DNA of 46,967 bases, from contig WFXH01000087.1 in assembly GCA_015490715.1 (NCBI GenBank), forward strand, positions 1-46,967. Direction: 5' to 3'. Source of the stretch: Saprospiraceae bacterium (GTDB lineage Bacteria > Bacteroidota > Bacteroidia > Chitinophagales > Saprospiraceae). Below, in pieces: positions 10,620-42,718 of the stretch. Both the position numbers and the translations under genes were made by a program. Position 1 is the stretch's first letter. Every line of letters begins with the position of its first letter. The notes beneath the pieces were generated by a model, which was not told where the DNA came from, did no database searches, and worked only from the letters and a program-made list of their open reading frames with translations.

Positions 10620-11261
10620 ATGGCTGCTGTAGTGTTGGATTTGGGCAATGTGCTCTTTCGCATAGACGAGGAGGGGTGTTTGAAGCGCCTGCGTGCATTG
10701 CTGAGCGCCGAAGCCCTTAAAGAAGGGGGATGGTGGGAAGTGGACTTCCCTGCATGGAGGCGTGCCCTTGATGCGGGGCAGATTTCGACGGAGGCCTTTG
10801 TTTCGGAAGTGTTGCGTCACTGCCGAAGTGGCATCGCGCGTCAGGACATTCTCAAAGTGTGGAACAGCATGCTCTTAGGGCCGTGTGATGGATTAGTCTC
10901 TCAACTGAAGAAGTGGTCTGCAAAGGTGCCGATATATCTGTTGAGCAACATCAGTGCAGTGCACTACGCGGAATTTGTCCGTCAGATGGAGGCATCAGGC
11001 ATCGAGATAGACGCGTTTGAGGGGCAATTTGCAGGATGTTTTTACTCGTATCGTCTGGGAATGGTCAAGCCTGAAGAACGCATTTACCGATATGTACAGT
11101 GTCGGATAGGCCAACCATTTCATACGCTCTTTTATATTGATGATAGCCCTGCCAATGTGGAGTCGGCTCGTGGCTTGGGGATGGCCGCGGTGCGGATGGA
11201 TCGGCCTTGTGCATGGGAGGTGATCGATGAGGCGATTGTTTCGCTGTTAGCGGATGAGTAG
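10620..11261 (+). CDS. HAD-superfamily phosphatase (YihX-like)
   Basis: 213 residues. HAD subfamily IA signatures: motif I VLDLGNVLF with nucleophile Asp7, motif II LLSNIS, the Lys region LGMVKPEERIYRYV, and motif IV FYIDDSPANVESARGLGM. The DLGNV form of motif I and the MVKPEERIYRYV stretch closely recall E. coli YihX, a sugar-1-phosphate phosphatase, so a small phosphorylated metabolite is the likely substrate; the exact one is not inferable. Soluble, no signal peptide. The last 15 bases overlap the 3' end of porZ, which is convergent. Confidence 0.88.
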   Translation: MAAVVLDLGNVLFRIDEEGCLKRLRALLSAEALKEGGWWEVDFPAWRRALDAGQISTEAFVSEVLRHCRSGIARQDILKVWNSMLLGPCDGLVSQLKKWSAKVPIYLLSNISAVHYAEFVRQMEASGIEIDAFEGQFAGCFYSYRLGMVKPEERIYRYVQCRIGQPFHTLFYIDDSPANVESARGLGMAAVRMDRPCAWEVIDEAIVSLLADE

Positions 11262-14259: not shown

Positions 14260-15375
14260 TTACTGCTGGACCAAGGGCATGAGCAGCAGCAGGAGGTCTT
14301 CGGGCTCTTCGGTTTCGGCTGGGTAGATGAGTCCGGGTTTTATCGGTGAAGACATGGCAAAGGTAACCTCCTCGCTTTGGAGGGTGGAGAGCATTTCGAT
14401 GAGGTACTTGCCATTGAATCCGATGCGGAAGGGCTCGGAGTCGTTGAATTGGCAGCCGAGTTGTTCGGTGGCTTCGTTGGAGTAGTCCATATCCTGGGCG
14501 TGAAGGGTTAGCGAATTGTCGCTGATGTTGAAGACGACGAGGTGGGTGAGTTTGTTGGCGTAGAGGGAGATGCGCTTTAAGGCGCTGAGCAACGCCTCGC
14601 GATTGACGATCATGCGCTTGGGAGCCTCTTTGGGGATGGCCATGTTGTAGTCGGGGAATTGCTCATTGATGGGAAGGGTCGACAACACTGTGTTGTCAAA
14701 CTCAAATTGGACGCGATTGCGGCTGTATGAAATGGTGACGGGGCCTTCCTCTGGGAGGATGTTTTTGAGGTACACCATTGGCTTGTGCGGTAAGATGATT
14801 TGTTCGGAGTTTTCCGAATCGATTTCGCTGGCGATATATTTGACTAAGCGATGGGCATCGGTGGCGACAAAGATGAGTTTATTGAAATCGATGTGGAGCA
14901 AAATGCCGTTGAGAGCTGGTCGATACTGGTCAGCACTCACGGCGTAGTGGGTCAGTCGAATGGCTTCTGCGAGCACAGCGGCATCGATGGTGAGCTGTTG
15001 GGTGAGCTCGTCTTCTGGGGGTTTGGGGAAATCTTCGGGATTGTCGCCGGCGAGTTTGTACTTACCCGTGATCGAACTTATTTCCACCACGCCGCTATCG
15101 GGGTCGTGCTGGATGGTTAGGGGTTGCTCGGGCAGGTTTTTTAAGGTATCGAGCAGGATTTTAGCCGGGACAGCCGCTGTGCCGTCGGTATCCCCGATGA
15201 CTTCCATTTGGGTGTGGATGGTTTCGTTGAGATTAGTAGCGGTGATGTGTAAGGTGTTGCCTTTGAGATCGAGTAGGAAGTCCTCTGTGATGGCGATGAC
15301 GGCTTTGGAAGGTACGATGCCCGCTGCTACATTGAGTTTTTTTTCCAGTTCTGCAGAAGAAATATTGAATTTCAT
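14260..15375 (-). CDS. dnaN: DNA polymerase III beta subunit (sliding clamp)
   Basis: 371 residues, normal for the three-domain ring clamp. It begins MKFNISSAELEKKLNVAAGIVPSK and shows the expected ITATNLNETI, the EDFPKPP stretch linking to domain 2, ALNGILLHI, TDAHRLVKY and GFNGKYLIEML. It ends in a hydrophobic tail, ..LLLLLMPLVQQ, like the MPM(R/Q)L tail of other clamps. The clamp holds polymerase III on DNA. dnaA is not next to it. It heads the dnaN-nadD-porZ string. A TAATTTTG box at 15416-15423 (minus) is a possible promoter. Confidence 0.97.
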   Translation of the reverse strand: MKFNISSAELEKKLNVAAGIVPSKAVIAITEDFLLDLKGNTLHITATNLNETIHTQMEVIGDTDGTAAVPAKILLDTLKNLPEQPLTIQHDPDSGVVEISSITGKYKLAGDNPEDFPKPPEDELTQQLTIDAAVLAEAIRLTHYAVSADQYRPALNGILLHIDFNKLIFVATDAHRLVKYIASEIDSENSEQIILPHKPMVYLKNILPEEGPVTISYSRNRVQFEFDNTVLSTLPINEQFPDYNMAIPKEAPKRMIVNREALLSALKRISLYANKLTHLVVFNISDNSLTLHAQDMDYSNEATEQLGCQFNDSEPFRIGFNGKYLIEMLSTLQSEEVTFAMSSPIKPGLIYPAETEEPEDLLLLLMPLVQQ

Positions 15376-35992: not shown

Positions 35993-37204
35993 TTAGATCT
36001 CCACGGAGCGATAAAAGCCGATCGGACCGTAGTCGAAAGAGAGGATCAGTCGATTTTGGCGCTTTCCACGCAGGAAGTTTTGGCGGCTTCGCTGCAGAGA
36101 CTTCCACAACTCGACGTAGGGGCGCGATATTTCTACGACGATGGGGATTTTATCTTCTCCATCGGAAGTGGATAGCGTGGCGATGGGCAAGGATATGAGC
36201 TCTTTCTCATGGCTTTCTCGTGAGTCAACGATGGGATTTAAAGGTACACTCGGGAGAAAGGGCACCTCTGGGATGGTGGGCTTGGAGCTCTGTGCAAGCC
36301 CTTTAATAGAGCTCTGAGCGGGAGTGTGTGGTGGTCGTTGAGTAGTAGAGGTGTGGGAGCGAACGTTTTGGATGCGGCCCCTTTCGGTATTTGTGGTCCT
36401 CGGTGGTGTGGAGCGGCCTCCCATAGGCGAAGAGTGTGCGATGTCGGAGGTGTGCGCCGCATGGGGGCGCTGTGGTTGGTCTTTTGGTTGGAGTTTTGGG
36501 GCGGGTATATTGTGCGATATGGCCGTGGGGATGTCGGCCGTAGGTGATGTCTGGGCGATAGTGATAGAGGATACGTTTGCGGAGGGGTAGTTGTTGACCA
36601 TCCACCACCAGCTGAGGGCAAGGAGTGCGGCAATGGCCGCTGCTGCGGAAAGTGGATACCTCAGCATTTTCGTGCGCGGATGGCGTTTGAGGCGGCTTTT
36701 GTGGGGATAGGTGATTTGCTCGTTGGGGCGCAGCTGGAGGGCTCGATATTGGGCTATGGCGTGTTCGATGGCGTCTTTAGACCATTGGGAATAGAGCAGT
36801 TTCTCTTCGCTCTCTGTGAGGGTGCCGTCGATGAGGGCCATGATGAGCTCGTCGAAATCTTCGATGGAGTGGTATAGGGCAGTTTTTCGTGGAAAATGCT
36901 TCTGTGCAGGCGGGCTCATGCGTGCAAGCTGGAGCTGGCGGTAGAGCTGCTGGAGCGATGTGGAGCGTTTTATACGTTGGAGTACTTTTTCCCTGTCGAC
37001 GGGTTGGAGGTCGCCTTCGATGAGGGCGATGAGGAGCTCTTCGTCGGAGAAATCATCGATGGGGCGATAGAGCATCGACTTCAGCGGAAAGCTGCGTGCG
37101 GTGGGCGGATGATCGCCGGGGGTGCGGGATGGTATGGAGGGAGCAGGGCGTCGATCTCCTCTGGAGTGGAGCTTTCGGATCCATATGTGTATTCGCTTGA
37201 TCAT
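35993..37204 (-). CDS. Probable membrane anti-sigma factor with tandem zinc-less N-terminal domains
   Basis: 403 residues, encoded 38 nt after the ECF sigma gene on the same strand. Two copies of an anti-sigma-like helical unit lie at about 39-103 and 105-166. Each begins FPxKxxLY followed by (I)DDF and LIxALI(E/D)GxL, and ends in a Leu/Gln-rich helix. A third FP-K-like start occurs around 167. Neither copy has the His/Cys zinc ligands of ZAS domains. A membrane helix at about 181-205 is followed by a long Pro/Thr/Ser/His-rich periplasmic segment and a short basic/hydrophobic C-terminal domain. The role is inferred from position and shape. Confidence 0.7.
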   Translation of the reverse strand: MIKRIHIWIRKLHSRGDRRPAPSIPSRTPGDHPPTARSFPLKSMLYRPIDDFSDEELLIALIEGDLQPVDREKVLQRIKRSTSLQQLYRQLQLARMSPPAQKHFPRKTALYHSIEDFDELIMALIDGTLTESEEKLLYSQWSKDAIEHAIAQYRALQLRPNEQITYPHKSRLKRHPRTKMLRYPLSAAAAIAALLALSWWWMVNNYPSANVSSITIAQTSPTADIPTAISHNIPAPKLQPKDQPQRPHAAHTSDIAHSSPMGGRSTPPRTTNTERGRIQNVRSHTSTTQRPPHTPAQSSIKGLAQSSKPTIPEVPFLPSVPLNPIVDSRESHEKELISLPIATLSTSDGEDKIPIVVEISRPYVELWKSLQRSRQNFLRGKRQNRLILSFDYGPIGFYRSVEI

Positions 37205-37242: not shown

Positions 37243-37728
37243 TCACGCTACGTAACCCATACGCGTCAGGATGTTTTTGAGTTTTTTACGAGCGCGGTAG
37301 ATATAGACTTTGACTTGGGAGGCATTGAGTTTGGTAATGTGTTCGATTTCCTTATAGGAGTAGCCTTCGTAGTCGCGCAGGAGTAGGACGGTGCGCTGGT
37401 CTGGTGGGAGGAATTTCAGTGCGCGGTGGAGTACTTCCTGGAGGTCTGTGTCGCGTGGGAGAGTGGTTTTGAGGGATTCGTGGATGGGTTCGAGAGGTTC
37501 TTCACGTTTGCTTTTGCGCCAGCGGTCGATGATGAGGTTGTGAGCGATTTTAAACAGGTAGGTTTTGCTGGTTTCGAAGCGCACGTGCTGGCGTTTTTCC
37601 CACATTTTGGCGAAGGCGTCTTGGACGATGTCTTGAGCGGCAGCCTCGTGGTTAATGGCGCTGAGGACAAATCGGTAGAGGGCATCGGCGTACATATCGA
37701 CACAGGCATTGTATTCGACTGCCGTCAT
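37243..37728 (-). CDS. ECF RNA polymerase sigma factor
   Basis: 161 residues. Region 2 with AAAQDIVQDAFAKMWEKRQ and KTYLFKIAHNLIIDRWRK, and region 4 with LPPDQRTVLLLRDYEGYSYKEIEHITKLNASQVKVYIYRARKKLK. Sigma-70 family, extracytoplasmic function type. It directs RNA polymerase to a small set of promoters, normally held inactive by a cognate anti-sigma factor, here probably the next gene. It is the first gene of a two-gene operon. The region upstream is the AT-rich stretch, where possible targets may lie. Confidence 0.95.
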   Translation of the reverse strand: MTAVEYNACVDMYADALYRFVLSAINHEAAAQDIVQDAFAKMWEKRQHVRFETSKTYLFKIAHNLIIDRWRKSKREEPLEPIHESLKTTLPRDTDLQEVLHRALKFLPPDQRTVLLLRDYEGYSYKEIEHITKLNASQVKVYIYRARKKLKNILTRMGYVA

Positions 37729-37944
37729 CCTTTAGGCGGTTTTAGAGTGTATACGACGAAGGGTGGGAAAAAGTTACACGGCGTAGGCGGGAATCTGGTT
37801 GGGGGGTGGGAATACAAATGAGATACACCTTTGGATGATGATTTAACAGGCTTCTTGATAGGGGTAAAGAGAGTTGCGAAAATTACAAGATTGTGCATGA
37901 ATTACCAAAAAGAACTGCACTTAACTCACATTATCATATAGGGG

Positions 37945-37960
37945 AGAAAAAATTTTTTCT
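37945..37960. repeat. 16-bp perfect palindrome AGAAAAAATTTTTTCT
   Basis: AGAAAAAA followed by TTTTTTCT, fully self-complementary, inside the AT-rich gap. It may be a protein site or bent DNA, or chance in AT-rich sequence. It lies about 215 nt upstream of the sigma gene start and 400 nt upstream of the lipoprotein gene. Confidence 0.45.
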
Positions 37961-38054
37961 ATAAGATGTTTTTGCATTGGAGGAAGTTATTGTCTTTGTG
38001 GCAGGAAGAGATTTTAGATGTTTTGTAGGTCAGTAATAGAGGGGGTTGTTAAAA

Positions 38055-38086
38055 GCATCCTGCATCCTGCATCCTGCATCCTGCAT
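38055..38086. repeat. Heptamer tandem repeat (GCATCCT)4.6
   Basis: Four perfect copies of GCATCCT plus GCAT. The period of 7 is not a multiple of 3, so copy-number change would shift frames if the array were translated. Here it lies about 280 nt before the small lipoprotein gene, outside any supported coding region. Confidence 0.85.
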
Positions 38087-38363
38087 TACAAATTGTCTTG
38101 AGTGTACCATTTACGAGTGGATTCATCTAATCTTGACATTTTCTCAGCGGATCGTTCACTACCTATTTATTATTGCAAAAAAATATAAGGCGGATTACCC
38201 TTACACATTGGTGTACTGGAGGGATGTAGATCCGCCATTTTTAATACGCTTGTGGAATAGCCACTACAAAATAGTTTCTCAAAAACCGATCTTGTGTAGC
38301 CTACATTTCGAGTGTTCTATAACTGATTATAATTAATTAAAACAAACCAAAAAAATTTAGAAA

Positions 38364-38774
38364 ATGAAAACAAAGAATCTTGTGTTTTTGATATGCATGT
38401 TCATATATGTTCTAATATCGTGTGTAGAGGGCAACCTCGACAAGGTGGAAGCTGTAGCGAGTGATGCTTTAGCGTCGATGAAAAGGGCTAGTACAGAGCT
38501 TGAGGCTATGGCTGCAGATGTAATGCTCCTAGATACTGTGCAAAACCAGGCCTGTATTCCCCAGACGGATGCGGATTCTTTTTGGTGTACCACCGACTAT
38601 GTGCATAGGAAACTGATTAAAGTACCTCGTAAAGGAGCCAGGCCGCCCTGTCGAGTGTGGGCATCGTATTTCATTACGGTCTGTAAACACAAATCAAAAG
38701 ATTTGTGGGTGACCTACCTTTACGACTTAAAGGTTTCTCCGGATTACTACGGTTGTGACATTTTTTGGGCATAG
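38364..38774 (+). CDS. Small cysteine-containing lipoprotein, unknown function
   Basis: 136 residues. Signal peptide with lipobox FIYVLISC (Cys20). Then an amphipathic Ala/Glu-rich helix (VEAVASDALASMKRASTELEAMAADVMLL), and a C-terminal region with five further cysteines (NQACIP, FWCTTD, PPCRVW, TVCKHK, YGCDIF) that may pair as disulfides in the periplasm. I do not recognise it. It lies in the AT-rich stretch, 62 nt before a T9SS cargo gene on the same strand. Confidence 0.72.
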   Translation: MKTKNLVFLICMFIYVLISCVEGNLDKVEAVASDALASMKRASTELEAMAADVMLLDTVQNQACIPQTDADSFWCTTDYVHRKLIKVPRKGARPPCRVWASYFITVCKHKSKDLWVTYLYDLKVSPDYYGCDIFWA

Positions 38775-38836
38775 GTGCAACGCCTGTGCTCATCCAATCA
38801 TTTTATACCTTGATAACTGAAAAAAAGATATTGATC

Positions 38837-40453
38837 ATGAATAGAAGTGGGTTTACAATTCGAAAAGAGTTTTGTATAGTTGTTTTTACAATAATCCTTC
38901 TTATAATGCGGCCATTCGAATATCTCATTGGGCAATCAGCATTGACAATTGAGAACGCCTCGCCGCTTTGGAGTACAGATATTGAATTTCATGGATATGG
39001 AAACCCACATTTAATACCGAGCTATAACGACTATCGAGATCTACTTCGCTTTGATGAAAGAGGGGATATCTATATCCTGTACAACATCTTTGGAAGCAAG
39101 CTCATAGAGGGATATGCGTTGTACAAGCTCAATCATAAGAATGGAGCCATAGAATGGGAATATATTAAACAGTCAAAGGAGTATAAGAATCGCACTGCTG
39201 CACATAGTCCTCGAATGACCTCTGATGGATACGAAGTCTTGATCAATTACGAAATCAATCGAGATAGTAGTCAGCTCTATTGGGGAGGATTATCAAAGAT
39301 AGGAAAGGCCGTACATCAATTTACTGATGGCAGTGTGATCGACAGTGTTGTGCCCGGACCAAGGGATACGCTGGCTGAACTTGTTTCATCGCCATTGGCA
39401 GTCACAATGACAAGTGTTGTAGTAGATTACATTCCATATGAAGAAGGATATGTGTATTTTGTAGGTTACTCCCCCCGTGCATCGGAATTTATAACTGAAG
39501 TGTCGCATCTAAATAATGAGGGGCATTTGCTTTATAAAAAGAGTACAACGATATCACTTCCTACACCTAAGATCAATTTTAAGGGGGGCATCACGGAAAA
39601 GGGTGATATGTGGATATTTCTGTATAGCATTCTCAAAGGTAGTGCCGATGGAGCCGATACTGTTTATTTGCGTATGTACTTGTACGACACCTTTCTCAAT
39701 TTACGAAGTGTGTATGATTTTTCCGATATTGCCGATATAAGCAGTGATGTAAAGAGCTTTGATATAGCATGGGATGCTGAAGAGCAGCATTATTACTTGC
39801 TGAGTTATTCCAATGCAGAAGGTGGGCCCCATAAGAGGGTGGTAATCCGAAAATTTGATTTGGATCATACCTTACGCGCGAGGATTGATTTATTCGGTTT
39901 GCCCTATAAAATATATAGCGTTGGTCTTGTCGAGTTATCGGGCGATACTACGCTACTCTATTTTACCAATGCTGATCAAAAAGGCAAAGAGGTTAATTTT
40001 TACATTGCCAGATCTTCAGGAGAAATCGAACACCTACGTACTCTGAGACTGGATACCAATTATGTGGCATATTTGAGGAAAGCCACTGTGACGCCTTCCG
40101 GCCAGTTGCTGGCGTATTTTGAATATAAGACGCTTGAGGAATATCCGTCTGCATTTATTCCGTGGCATAATAGTTACTTTTTATTTGACATAGAGGATTT
40201 TATTACTTCAGTTAGTCCAGTGAAAAACCATCCGTCCTGGACGGTATGGCCAAATCCCACAACGGGGAGAGTGTATCTTAAGGGAGAATGCTTTCGCCCG
40301 GAAGTGCGCATTTTTTCCCTCGATGGGAGAGAAAAGGAGGTATATTGTGAAAATGGTGTAATGAATATCTCCGATTATGAACCTGGAACATATATAGTGC
40401 AAATCTACTCACGTGGCCGATTAATGGCAGTCAAAAGAATAGTGAAGCTATAA
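38837..40453 (+). CDS. T9SS type A sorting domain protein (paralog 1)
   Basis: 538 residues. Signal helix (FCIVVFTIILLIMRPFEYLIGQ), a long beta-rich region of repeated measured-value blades (DIYILYNIFGSKLIEGYALYKLN, GYVYFVGYSPR, DMWIFLYSILKG), and a C-terminal type A sorting signal (WTVWPNPTTGRVYLKGE ... IFSLDGREKEVY ... PGTYIVQIYSRGRLMAVKRIVKL). No enzyme motif; a propeller-like fold is possible. The frame opens at 38765 but ATG 38837 precedes the signal helix. The sequence is AT-rich compared with the neighbours. The next gene is similar in size and layout. Confidence 0.85.
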   Translation: MNRSGFTIRKEFCIVVFTIILLIMRPFEYLIGQSALTIENASPLWSTDIEFHGYGNPHLIPSYNDYRDLLRFDERGDIYILYNIFGSKLIEGYALYKLNHKNGAIEWEYIKQSKEYKNRTAAHSPRMTSDGYEVLINYEINRDSSQLYWGGLSKIGKAVHQFTDGSVIDSVVPGPRDTLAELVSSPLAVTMTSVVVDYIPYEEGYVYFVGYSPRASEFITEVSHLNNEGHLLYKKSTTISLPTPKINFKGGITEKGDMWIFLYSILKGSADGADTVYLRMYLYDTFLNLRSVYDFSDIADISSDVKSFDIAWDAEEQHYYLLSYSNAEGGPHKRVVIRKFDLDHTLRARIDLFGLPYKIYSVGLVELSGDTTLLYFTNADQKGKEVNFYIARSSGEIEHLRTLRLDTNYVAYLRKATVTPSGQLLAYFEYKTLEEYPSAFIPWHNSYFLFDIEDFITSVSPVKNHPSWTVWPNPTTGRVYLKGECFRPEVRIFSLDGREKEVYCENGVMNISDYEPGTYIVQIYSRGRLMAVKRIVKL

Positions 40454-40507
40454 TGATATTTAGCTGTGACTCTCGATGATTAGTCACAAATTCAAAATGT
40501 AGGTATT

Positions 40508-42094
40508 ATGATGAAAAAAGTCTATGCATCTGTGATGATAGCAGTACTAAATACCTTTTCTCATGCCCTATGGGCACAATCGTTTTCCTTCAAAGATGAT
40601 GGCCCTGTACTCTGGCATCACTTAGTTAAAGGCGATGGATATAGCGATACTATACGGATTTTTTGGGCAATAAATGGTCTTGACGGAGTAAAGATTGTAG
40701 GAGATGGGCTATACTTGCTACATTTTGCATTGATACAATTTTATGAAGGGTATACTGTAGAGAAAATTGATTTAAACACAGGAGAGGCCCTGTGGACTCA
40801 TACTGTGCTCGGTGTCGACAAGATGAATAGAGAATATCCAAGTATCCCGTATATTACTGGAGATAGCAGCTTCAATGTTTTGGTTTTTCGCCAAAAAGAC
40901 ACAGCGAATACTAATGTACTATGGCAGGAAGCAGTGTTTGGCTTGCGCAGCTATGATCTTCTAACGGGTGAGGTCATAGATAGCAGTTTTGCAGATAGAA
41001 AAGATTCAACAGTGGCCACCTTAAGGCCTATCGGAGGCTCATTTATTAAAAAGGTGAGCCTTTTATACCCTGATACAAATCATTTGGATACATTTTATTA
41101 TTTAGATAGGATATTTTTGAGTTCAACTATCTTGAACAATATTTACAAATTAGATAAGAGGGGTAGAGTTGTAGATAGCTTATTTTCTCATACTACCCTT
41201 AGACATAATGTTGATAATTACTCCTATCGATTACTTGAAAATGGGTCCATAGTATTCCTCTATCACTCTCCTGCTATTTTCTTTGGTGAAAAGGATGACT
41301 TGACGCTGGAAGTAGTAAAACTAAGAGGTTTAAAATTTGATACTACGTATTTAGATTTGTCGAGTACACTGTCGGGATTTGATCGGAGCATTTTGACCTA
41401 TGCTGATACAACTAAGTTTATAATAAAAGCGAAAAAGGAAACGAGAGATATTATAGAGATAAAATTGCTCTGTTATGATTATCATGCCAGACTTTTGGGC
41501 TCGGCTGAGATAATGGTCGATAAAAGAGAGTTTCCAGAATTCGAAGTGAGCAATCCCTTGCTTTTAGAGGATGGTAAGATGCTTTATGCTATGACTTGGC
41601 AAAAAGATAGCGTATCATCTATTATTACGCTCGTGAAATCGGATAGTTCGGGCAATCGTGAAGTGATTGGGATCTTGGAACCCGTAGCGGAAAATTCCGT
41701 AATAAAAACAGACTATCTCATCGACATCGATGACAATCGCTTATTGGTGGGAATCTCGGATCGAAAAACATTGTCCAATACGAGATGGAAATATTTGATG
41801 AATTGGGTTATGCTCTCTAAGGAAGAGCTTCTTAAGAGCATAGGAACAAAAATGCCAAAAGATCCTATCGATGTTACTATTTATCCCAATCCTGTGAGGG
41901 AGAAAATACGGATTATCAATGGGAAGCTCAACGTCCGAGCATATCAACTGTATAACAGCGATGGTCAAATTGTCAAAAGCGGCCTTATATCTACTAATGG
42001 TATTGATGTACATAACTTGCCAGCAGGACTATATATACTCAGACTAAGAATGCGCAATAGATCGGAGGTGTGTTATAAGGTGCTTAAAATGTAA
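40508..42094 (+). CDS. T9SS type A sorting domain protein (paralog 2)
   Basis: 528 residues. Signal peptide (VYASVMIAVLNTFSHALWAQ), then beta-rich sequence with the same early pattern as its upstream neighbour: a SPLW/GPVLW motif near the start, then YxLHF/LYKLN and a (L)NxxxGxxxW step. The C-terminal type A sorting signal is VTIYPNPVREKIRIING ... AYQLYNSDGQIVKSG ... PAGLYILRLRMRNRSEVCYKVLKM. Start ATG 40508 (or 40511). Very AT-rich; some lines are below 30% GC by eye. The two proteins look like diverged tandem paralogs, but their pairwise identity was not computed. Confidence 0.85.
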   Translation: MMKKVYASVMIAVLNTFSHALWAQSFSFKDDGPVLWHHLVKGDGYSDTIRIFWAINGLDGVKIVGDGLYLLHFALIQFYEGYTVEKIDLNTGEALWTHTVLGVDKMNREYPSIPYITGDSSFNVLVFRQKDTANTNVLWQEAVFGLRSYDLLTGEVIDSSFADRKDSTVATLRPIGGSFIKKVSLLYPDTNHLDTFYYLDRIFLSSTILNNIYKLDKRGRVVDSLFSHTTLRHNVDNYSYRLLENGSIVFLYHSPAIFFGEKDDLTLEVVKLRGLKFDTTYLDLSSTLSGFDRSILTYADTTKFIIKAKKETRDIIEIKLLCYDYHARLLGSAEIMVDKREFPEFEVSNPLLLEDGKMLYAMTWQKDSVSSIITLVKSDSSGNREVIGILEPVAENSVIKTDYLIDIDDNRLLVGISDRKTLSNTRWKYLMNWVMLSKEELLKSIGTKMPKDPIDVTIYPNPVREKIRIINGKLNVRAYQLYNSDGQIVKSGLISTNGIDVHNLPAGLYILRLRMRNRSEVCYKVLKM

Positions 42095-42171
42095 GTATGC
42101 CTTTACGGCATTTATCATCTGTGTAAAGATTTATCGGGTTAACAATTGTGTAGATTAGGTGGATGTAAAAG

Positions 42172-42196
42172 TGCCTTGTGATAAGGCAAAGGTTTT
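42172..42196 (+). terminator. Weak hairpin between convergent cargo and sdh-lipoprotein genes
   Basis: TGCCTT (42172-42177), loop GTGAT, AAGGCA (42183-42188), followed by AAGGTTTT. Short stem and short T-run; low confidence. A second 5-bp hairpin occurs at 42097-42111. Confidence 0.25.
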
Positions 42197-42271
42197 AAAA
42201 ATGTGATTTTTTGTCCTATGCCCTTCTGCATGTGGGATCGAGTGGATTAGAGAGCGAGAAAACCTATATTT

Positions 42272-42718
42272 TCACCTATCCGTCCAATAGAGTTTTTCGA
42301 TGCGGAGGAGGGGGCCTGGGCAGTGGTGTTGGTGGCAGGCCTGGCAGAGGCTGATGAGGCCATTGTAGGAAGCTGTGTCGGGGTGTTGTCGGAAGTGATC
42401 GTATTGGCGGAGGAAGGCGTGGGCGTAGAGGTAGTAGCTGGAGTCTTTCATGTGTGGGTGGGTGGCTTCTGCGGTGAGTATTTTGGAGAAGTGTCGGTTG
42501 GGGAGTGGCACTTGGGCGGTTGGGAGGTGTGGGCGTATGCTGTCGAGGTAGTGGGTCATGTAGCGCATGTGTGCGGCCAGAGGGCTCATCGGTTGGGGGC
42601 GGTATTCGACGAATGCGGGTTTGGGAGTGGCCTTTTTATGTAAGGTGGGGAGGAGCTTGCAGGCGGAAAGGAGGATGGCGAAGAGAGCTATGGGCCATAT
42701 ATGGCTGGATGCGATCAT
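42272..42718 (-). CDS. CxxCH lipoprotein, fourth gene of the sdh operon
   Basis: 148 residues. Lipobox LFAILLSAC, then a helix-rich domain ([36 protein letters not shown]) ending in [21 protein letters not shown]. The single CQACH is a possible haem c site near the C terminus, as in some four-helix c' type cytochromes, followed by an extra Cys. ATG 42718 overlaps the sdhB stop by 4 nt (ATGA), so it is translationally coupled to SdhB. It is a candidate periplasmic electron-transfer partner of the complex. The frame opens at 42796 within sdhB, which is a shadow. Confidence 0.8.

Follow-up and report, generated by a model that had tools for sequence, protein, structure and literature searches.

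Contig WFXH01000087.1 of the Saprospiraceae bacterium assembly GCA_015490715.1 contains a sharply AT-rich segment set between genes of balanced composition. What is this segment, and does it belong to the stable gene complement of its lineage? We analysed the whole 46,967-nt stretch of DNA (the window) together with the genome from which it comes, a 2.45-Mb draft in 115 contigs (G000), and a single congener used for comparison (G001). The segment, referred to here as the island, contains three forward-strand genes that we call U, T-A and T-B. The features of the region are as follows.

37,820–42,270 (~4.45 kb), no strand: AT-rich accessory island, 39.0% GC, without a counterpart in G001
37,945–37,960, no strand: 16-bp perfect palindrome AGAAAAAATTTTTTCT (A-run/T-run)
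38,055–38,086, forward: tandem array of GCATCCT, 4.6 copies, a candidate phase-variation repeat 278 bp 5' of the U start
38,364–38,774, forward: U, short cysteine-rich lipoprotein of 136 aa, matching only the N-terminal half of a ~280-aa family
38,837–40,453, forward: T-A, propeller-family protein of 538 aa with a T9SS type-A sorting tail
40,508–42,094, forward: T-B, member of the T-A family, 528 aa, with a predicted β-propeller over residues ~30–440 and a T9SS type-A sorting tail
37,243–37,728, reverse: left-flank ECF sigma factor, outside the module, similar to NF058625 (PG0214/GFO_1088 family)
42,272–42,712, reverse: right-flank small lipoprotein gene, outside the module and downstream of sdhB

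The GC content of the island is 39.0% when measured over 37,820–42,279, and 500-bp windows range from 33.8 to 41.6% inside it versus 51–62% on both sides; the core genes that border it have 52–58% GC. Codon usage follows the same division, with GC3 values of 0.37–0.47 in the three island genes and 0.64–0.72 in the flanking sigma factor, glyS and sdhAB. An earlier note, made from the letters of the sequence, had reported a sharp fall between GC-balanced core genes. Both the fall and the balanced flanks are confirmed, and the values near 25–30% that it quoted apply to single lines only. The palindrome and the heptamer array that it listed are also present, the first perfect and the second 100% matched. 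A search of the island against Rfam returned no family. On the left, the sigma factor scores 123.7 bits against NF058625, under the cut-off of 130. The putative anti-sigma protein beside the island (35,993–37,204 of the window) has a dN/dS of 0.41 between the congeners, compared with 0.06 for its sigma factor.

The corresponding site in G001 is empty. By DNA search, similarity to G001 runs at 89% identity as far as position 37,819 of the window and resumes at 93% at position 42,280; in G001, 10 bp separate the two matching segments. An alignment at base level sets the right limit of similarity at ~42,262. The sigma factor and the small lipoprotein that adjoin the empty site are 97.5 and 92% identical, respectively, to those of the window. 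Both junctions are intergenic, and both flanks continue in the G001 gene order on one contig. The island is therefore accessory and polymorphic, as judged from this one relative. The earlier note had proposed an accessory cassette and had named a conserved position with equal GC in relatives as the observation that would count against it; the relative has the same flanks and no island. The G001 contig C10 was considered as a second case of presence and absence and was rejected, since its T gene sits in G000 on contig C95 (83% identical DNA), where it is cut by the contig end. Contig C79 of G000 has almost no DNA match in G001, and its module was left out of the comparison for that reason.

How the polymorphism arose is less clear. 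The alignment with G001 reveals no target duplication, terminal repeats were not seen, and no integrase or transposase occurs among the island ORFs, so the features of a mobile genetic element that we looked for are lacking. Searches for plasmid matches to T and for phage matches to U returned none. In other genera the gene order of the sdhB neighbourhood is absent, and the sdhB–lipoprotein–sigma factor arrangement is kept only in G001; for this reason, gain of the island here and its loss in G001 are not separable. The suggestion that the island was acquired is thus consistent with its composition and not proven, given the missing integrase, transposase and target duplication and a neighbourhood that other genera do not share.

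T-A and T-B each contain an N-terminal signal, a large mature domain and a C-terminal sorting tail, the layout of T9SS type-A cargo (TIGR04183/PF18962). The tail of T-A lies just above the cut-off of both models (27.2 versus 27 bits for Pfam and 24 versus 23 bits for NCBIfam), and that of T-B passes clearly (41.3 and 43.5 bits). The two T9SS cargo proteins of about 530 residues that had been read from the sequence are therefore upheld. The signal is type-I-like and there is no lipobox. A T9SS machinery gene is present in the same genome, where contig C35 encodes a protein matching SprA_N at 483.7 bits. Together, the sorting tails and SprA suggest that T would be exported to the cell surface by the type IX system. 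Two things set the T proteins apart from known type-A cargo: their mature domain belongs to a predicted propeller family that neither Pfam nor NCBIfam models, and it comes with a cysteine-rich lipoprotein of its own, encoded upstream.

Apart from the sorting tail, searches of Pfam, NCBIfam, PHROGs and PADLOC identified no family for the T body, and a sequence profile search of the PDB gave nothing significant. An AlphaFold2 model of T built from ten sequences has a modest pLDDT of 62.7; Foldseek and VIA-align 2 concur that residues ~30–440 of the model form a β-propeller. BamB chains are the top structural matches (Z up to 13.7, rmsd 4.3 over 274 residues, covering residues 29–437), and sialidases and polysaccharide lyases are also found among the propeller matches. 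T further resembles BamB and the PQQ-type propellers in its kind of blade motif, G-x-(L/I)-x-E-K-x-D-x-x-T-G-x-x-x-W. BamB, however, is a lipidated periplasmic propeller of the BAM complex, whereas T is unlipidated, carries a T9SS tail and is only ~10% identical, so the likeness is one of fold. Prediction thus supports a β-propeller body for T as a statement about fold; no binding or catalytic site or motif was identified.

The two island T proteins are homologous. Against a T profile lacking the tail and built without the window proteins, T-A scores 82 bits and T-B 123 bits, with a best shuffled score of ~9, and pairwise alignment gives 19% identity. In a tree of 60 T proteins, both lie on very long separate branches (3.07 and 2.39) that are the longest or near-longest, which leaves their exact placement unsure. 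They are not sisters, and most other tandem T pairs in the tree are recent duplicates, unlike the window pair. The earlier note had supposed that the cargo is duplicated and had asked for significant similarity between the two proteins. That similarity exists and reflects deep homology within one old family; a recent duplication is not supported, given the low identity and the tree. Its further suggestion of fast evolution fits the window branches and not the relatives within the genus, as T genes common to G000 and G001 have dN/dS values of 0.25–0.31. These values indicate that the T family is maintained under ordinary purifying selection.

T-A and T-B also do not group with the other T copies of their own genome, which bears on the integrity of the assembly. 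The island could have come from another member of the Saprospiraceae and been joined into a metagenome contig, as its foreign composition, its absence from the congener and the 115-contig state of the draft might suggest. Against this, the junctions fall between genes, the flanks follow the gene order of G001 on one contig, and the family occurs at four other loci of the same genome. We regard an assembly artefact as most improbable. A protein search of G000 placed relatives of T-B at further loci, among them a tandem array on C109. At 332–9838 of L051, on the same contig, lies the gene for a secreted repeat protein of 3168 aa with SdrD-like B domains, recognized by eye; its neighbours are a TonB-dependent receptor-like gene and the array of three T genes.

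The gene upstream of T-A encodes the small lipoprotein with five cysteines that the earlier note had described: of its seven cysteines, one (C11) belongs to the signal, one (C20) to the lipobox (LISC) and five to the mature chain of the 136-aa protein. Full-length members of the U family are ~280 aa long and contain 17–20 cysteines. Window U was left out when the U profile was built; it scores 26.6 bits against that profile over model positions 19–134 of 279, compared with 12.2 bits for the best of 2000 shuffles. The lipobox cysteine and four cysteines of the N-domain are common to all six aligned U members, window U included. Its match stops at position 134, and the C-terminal C..C...CG..CC...C domain is missing. 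Window U is thus a shortened relative with the first cysteine domain only, not a full family member. Pfam, NCBIfam, PHROGs and PADLOC contain no family for U, the single PHROG match being to the signal region only, and a structure model of U (pLDDT 56) is too weak to interpret. In our reading, the domains of this lipoprotein are disulfide-rich and would remain at the membrane.

Two further U copies in G000 are incomplete. The copy at L052 (G000:C63, 6504–7097) lacks its first half relative to its counterpart in G001, an intact U lipoprotein of 288 aa, and the copy at L053 (G000:C79, 4900–5030) is interrupted by an in-frame TAA a short way past the lipobox. The T genes that accompany all three incomplete copies stay open. 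One may ask whether the window copy is simply a degenerating paralogue that G001 has already lost, its AT-richness and long branches being products of relaxed selection. The loss of the second half of U, the longest branches in the tree, the 19% identity of T-A to T-B and the empty site in G001 all fit such decay. It is difficult to reconcile with three reading frames that remain open over ~1,200 codons, and with two T proteins that retain the signal, the propeller profile and a sorting tail above the curated cut-off; we therefore consider a decaying remnant unlikely.

The combination of U and T extends far beyond the window. Among 298 Saprospiraceae genomes, T is found in 36 (16 of 112 genera) and U in 25, and seven related loci in named records are mostly from Saprospiraceae. 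At T loci found by T alone and with upstream DNA, U lies immediately upstream in 21 of 28, leaving 7 without U. When every region examined is taken together, T is the next gene after 44 of 47 U genes, with a median gap of 67 bp. Because U matches guided some of the choice of the wider sample, and the genes that trained the U profile were themselves neighbours of T, 21 of 28 is the least biased figure for the pairing. U and T distances correlate over 42 pairs (Mantel r of 0.77, and 0.38 without the closest pairs, compared with a permutation maximum of 0.20). The window arrangement of a single U ahead of two T genes also occurs at L127, L151, L156 and L157 in other genomes, and in G000 a cysteine-rich protein lies upstream of each of the C63 and C79 T genes. 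The link between lipoprotein and cargo proposed in the earlier note is thus conserved well outside this locus, and the island is one copy of a previously undescribed recurring module, U-T(n), in which U is followed by one or more T genes. The proposal in that note that the lipoprotein might anchor or protect the cargo is a conjecture, and window U has lost its second domain.

The arrangement of the module varies. At L138 (G069:C58) and L158 (G162:C37), one region contains whole modules in tandem (U, T, U, T) and another contains three U genes with a single T. Contigs C109 and C95 of G000 break off within T genes; drafts of this kind therefore probably miss copies of the module together with their U genes. 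U may also be dispensable, given the 7 of 28 T loci without it and the three incomplete copies in G000.

These exceptions bear on what the pairing means. U and T might be secreted proteins with separate functions, placed in one operon and spreading as a unit through linkage only, which would accommodate the T loci without U, the single U ahead of several tandem T genes and the damaged U copies beside open T genes. The recurrence of U directly before T in 44 of 47 cases, across genera and at many loci that are not linked, and the correlated distances argue the other way, and we find independence doubtful. An antagonism module, with T as a secreted effector, toxic or lytic, and U as an immunity lipoprotein in the periplasm or at the surface, would explain an accessory, variable locus with a small partner next to a secreted protein, and sialidases and polysaccharide lyases do occur among the propeller matches. 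However, U is located upstream and serves one to several T genes whose sequences differ, and it is cut short while T stays open; T and U match no toxin or defence family and no catalytic motif is seen. This role is very unlikely.

The GCATCCT array upstream of window U has no match elsewhere in its own genome, and arrays of this type are a recurring element of the module. Those located 5' of U have mostly 7-bp units, occasionally 11-, 8- or 6-bp units, and the unit differs by locus. In G001 they are GTCAGGATCAC x13.3 and CATATCG x9.1, and in other genera ATCGTGG x13.3, TACAGAC x8.9, TGCTTAC x7, GTATCCT x11.6 and CCGCATA x12.1. Within 688 kb of sequence, 12 of 21 short arrays fall in the 3.3% that lies upstream of U. 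A stricter, gene-level test finds arrays upstream of 9 of 43 U genes and 7 of 369 other genes (Fisher p = 4e-6); these seven include the window sigma factor, which has the same array as window U, and two of the seven share one array. The majority of U copies lack an array, and a few other genes possess one. Ten module-free stretches of 14–20 kb from G000 and G001 contain no arrays. The Bacteroidota promoter motif TAnnTTTG was considered as a companion of the arrays and rejected as inconsistent, being near 7 of 10 arrays at varying places and absent by the array in the window.

Several arrays have unusual surroundings. At L060 (G001:C79, 8343–8459), the gene that follows an 11-bp array, GAGCGTTTACC x10.6, is that of a secreted metalloprotease-like protein, which indicates that arrays are not exclusive to the U-T module. 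A region of ~478 bp, with the same heptamer unit at both loci, is 81% identical between L177 (G000:C81, 3245–3715) and L132 (G001:C10, 3282–3759). It lies 5' of a GLPGLI-like secreted protein in G000 and 5' of U in G001, ending about at the start codon, and a shorter part recurs at G000:C49; these positions suggest a shared or swapped promoter region. At L155 (G057:C89), GTATCCT (10,979–11,042) and ATCCTGT (14,777–14,857), rotations of one unit, flank a single U-T module; recombination between them might exchange or delete it.

The arrays may act as a phase-variation switch. A close precedent is the hmw1A and hmw2A adhesin loci of Haemophilus influenzae, where experiments showed that more heptanucleotide repeats in the promoter lead to lower expression (PMC8262952). 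The likeness is a 7-bp array ahead of the gene for a secreted and variable protein of the surface (predicted in the present case); the differences are the phylum, the secretion route and the locus-specific units, some of them 11 bp, and for the present arrays length variation is a prediction. Heptamer repeats are over-represented in many bacteria (PMC4692102). The TAACTGA repeats of Beggiatoaceae, Cyanobacteria and some Bacteroidetes are intergenic and near start codons (PMC4679880), but use one fixed unit genome-wide, in contrast to the locus-specific units before one gene family described here. Neither locus-private units ahead of one gene family nor an association with a T9SS pair turned up in the open-licence literature searched.

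We lean towards a model in which the island is a copy of an accessory, exchangeable two-component surface module, with U as the partner and T as the variable head. U would stay on the membrane as a lipid-anchored docking or folding partner of the propeller, which would be exported by the type IX secretion system and either fixed to the cell surface by its C-terminal tail or released there. The propeller may serve as a variable binding head, adhesin- or receptor-like. Copies vary between strains and loci, many with a private 7- or 11-bp array 5' of U, where a change in copy number could shift promoter or leader spacing and thereby switch or tune expression. Homology, gene order, the empty site, array enrichment and the presence of SprA are established; the fold comes from prediction, and phase variation, ligand binding, contact between U and T and location at the surface are inferred. 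In the window, a one-domain U would serve, or once have served, two strongly diverged T genes. A broader proposal, that exchangeable U-T(n) cassettes diversify surfaces family-wide, each with its own 7- or 11-bp switch and each delivering by T9SS a separately phase-variable propeller head held or matured by U, is possible and is put forward tentatively.

In wastewater treatment plants Saprospiraceae are abundant, and some of them are filamentous or move by gliding (PMC9304909); little is known of their surfaces. A conserved, unannotated gene pair at unlinked loci, polymorphic between close relatives and associated with slippage-prone repeats, is a candidate for surface variation, which may be directed at phages, predators or attachment sites. 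The module would provide the type IX system with a possible dedicated partner lipoprotein, and it makes repeat-driven switching in Bacteroidota directly testable.
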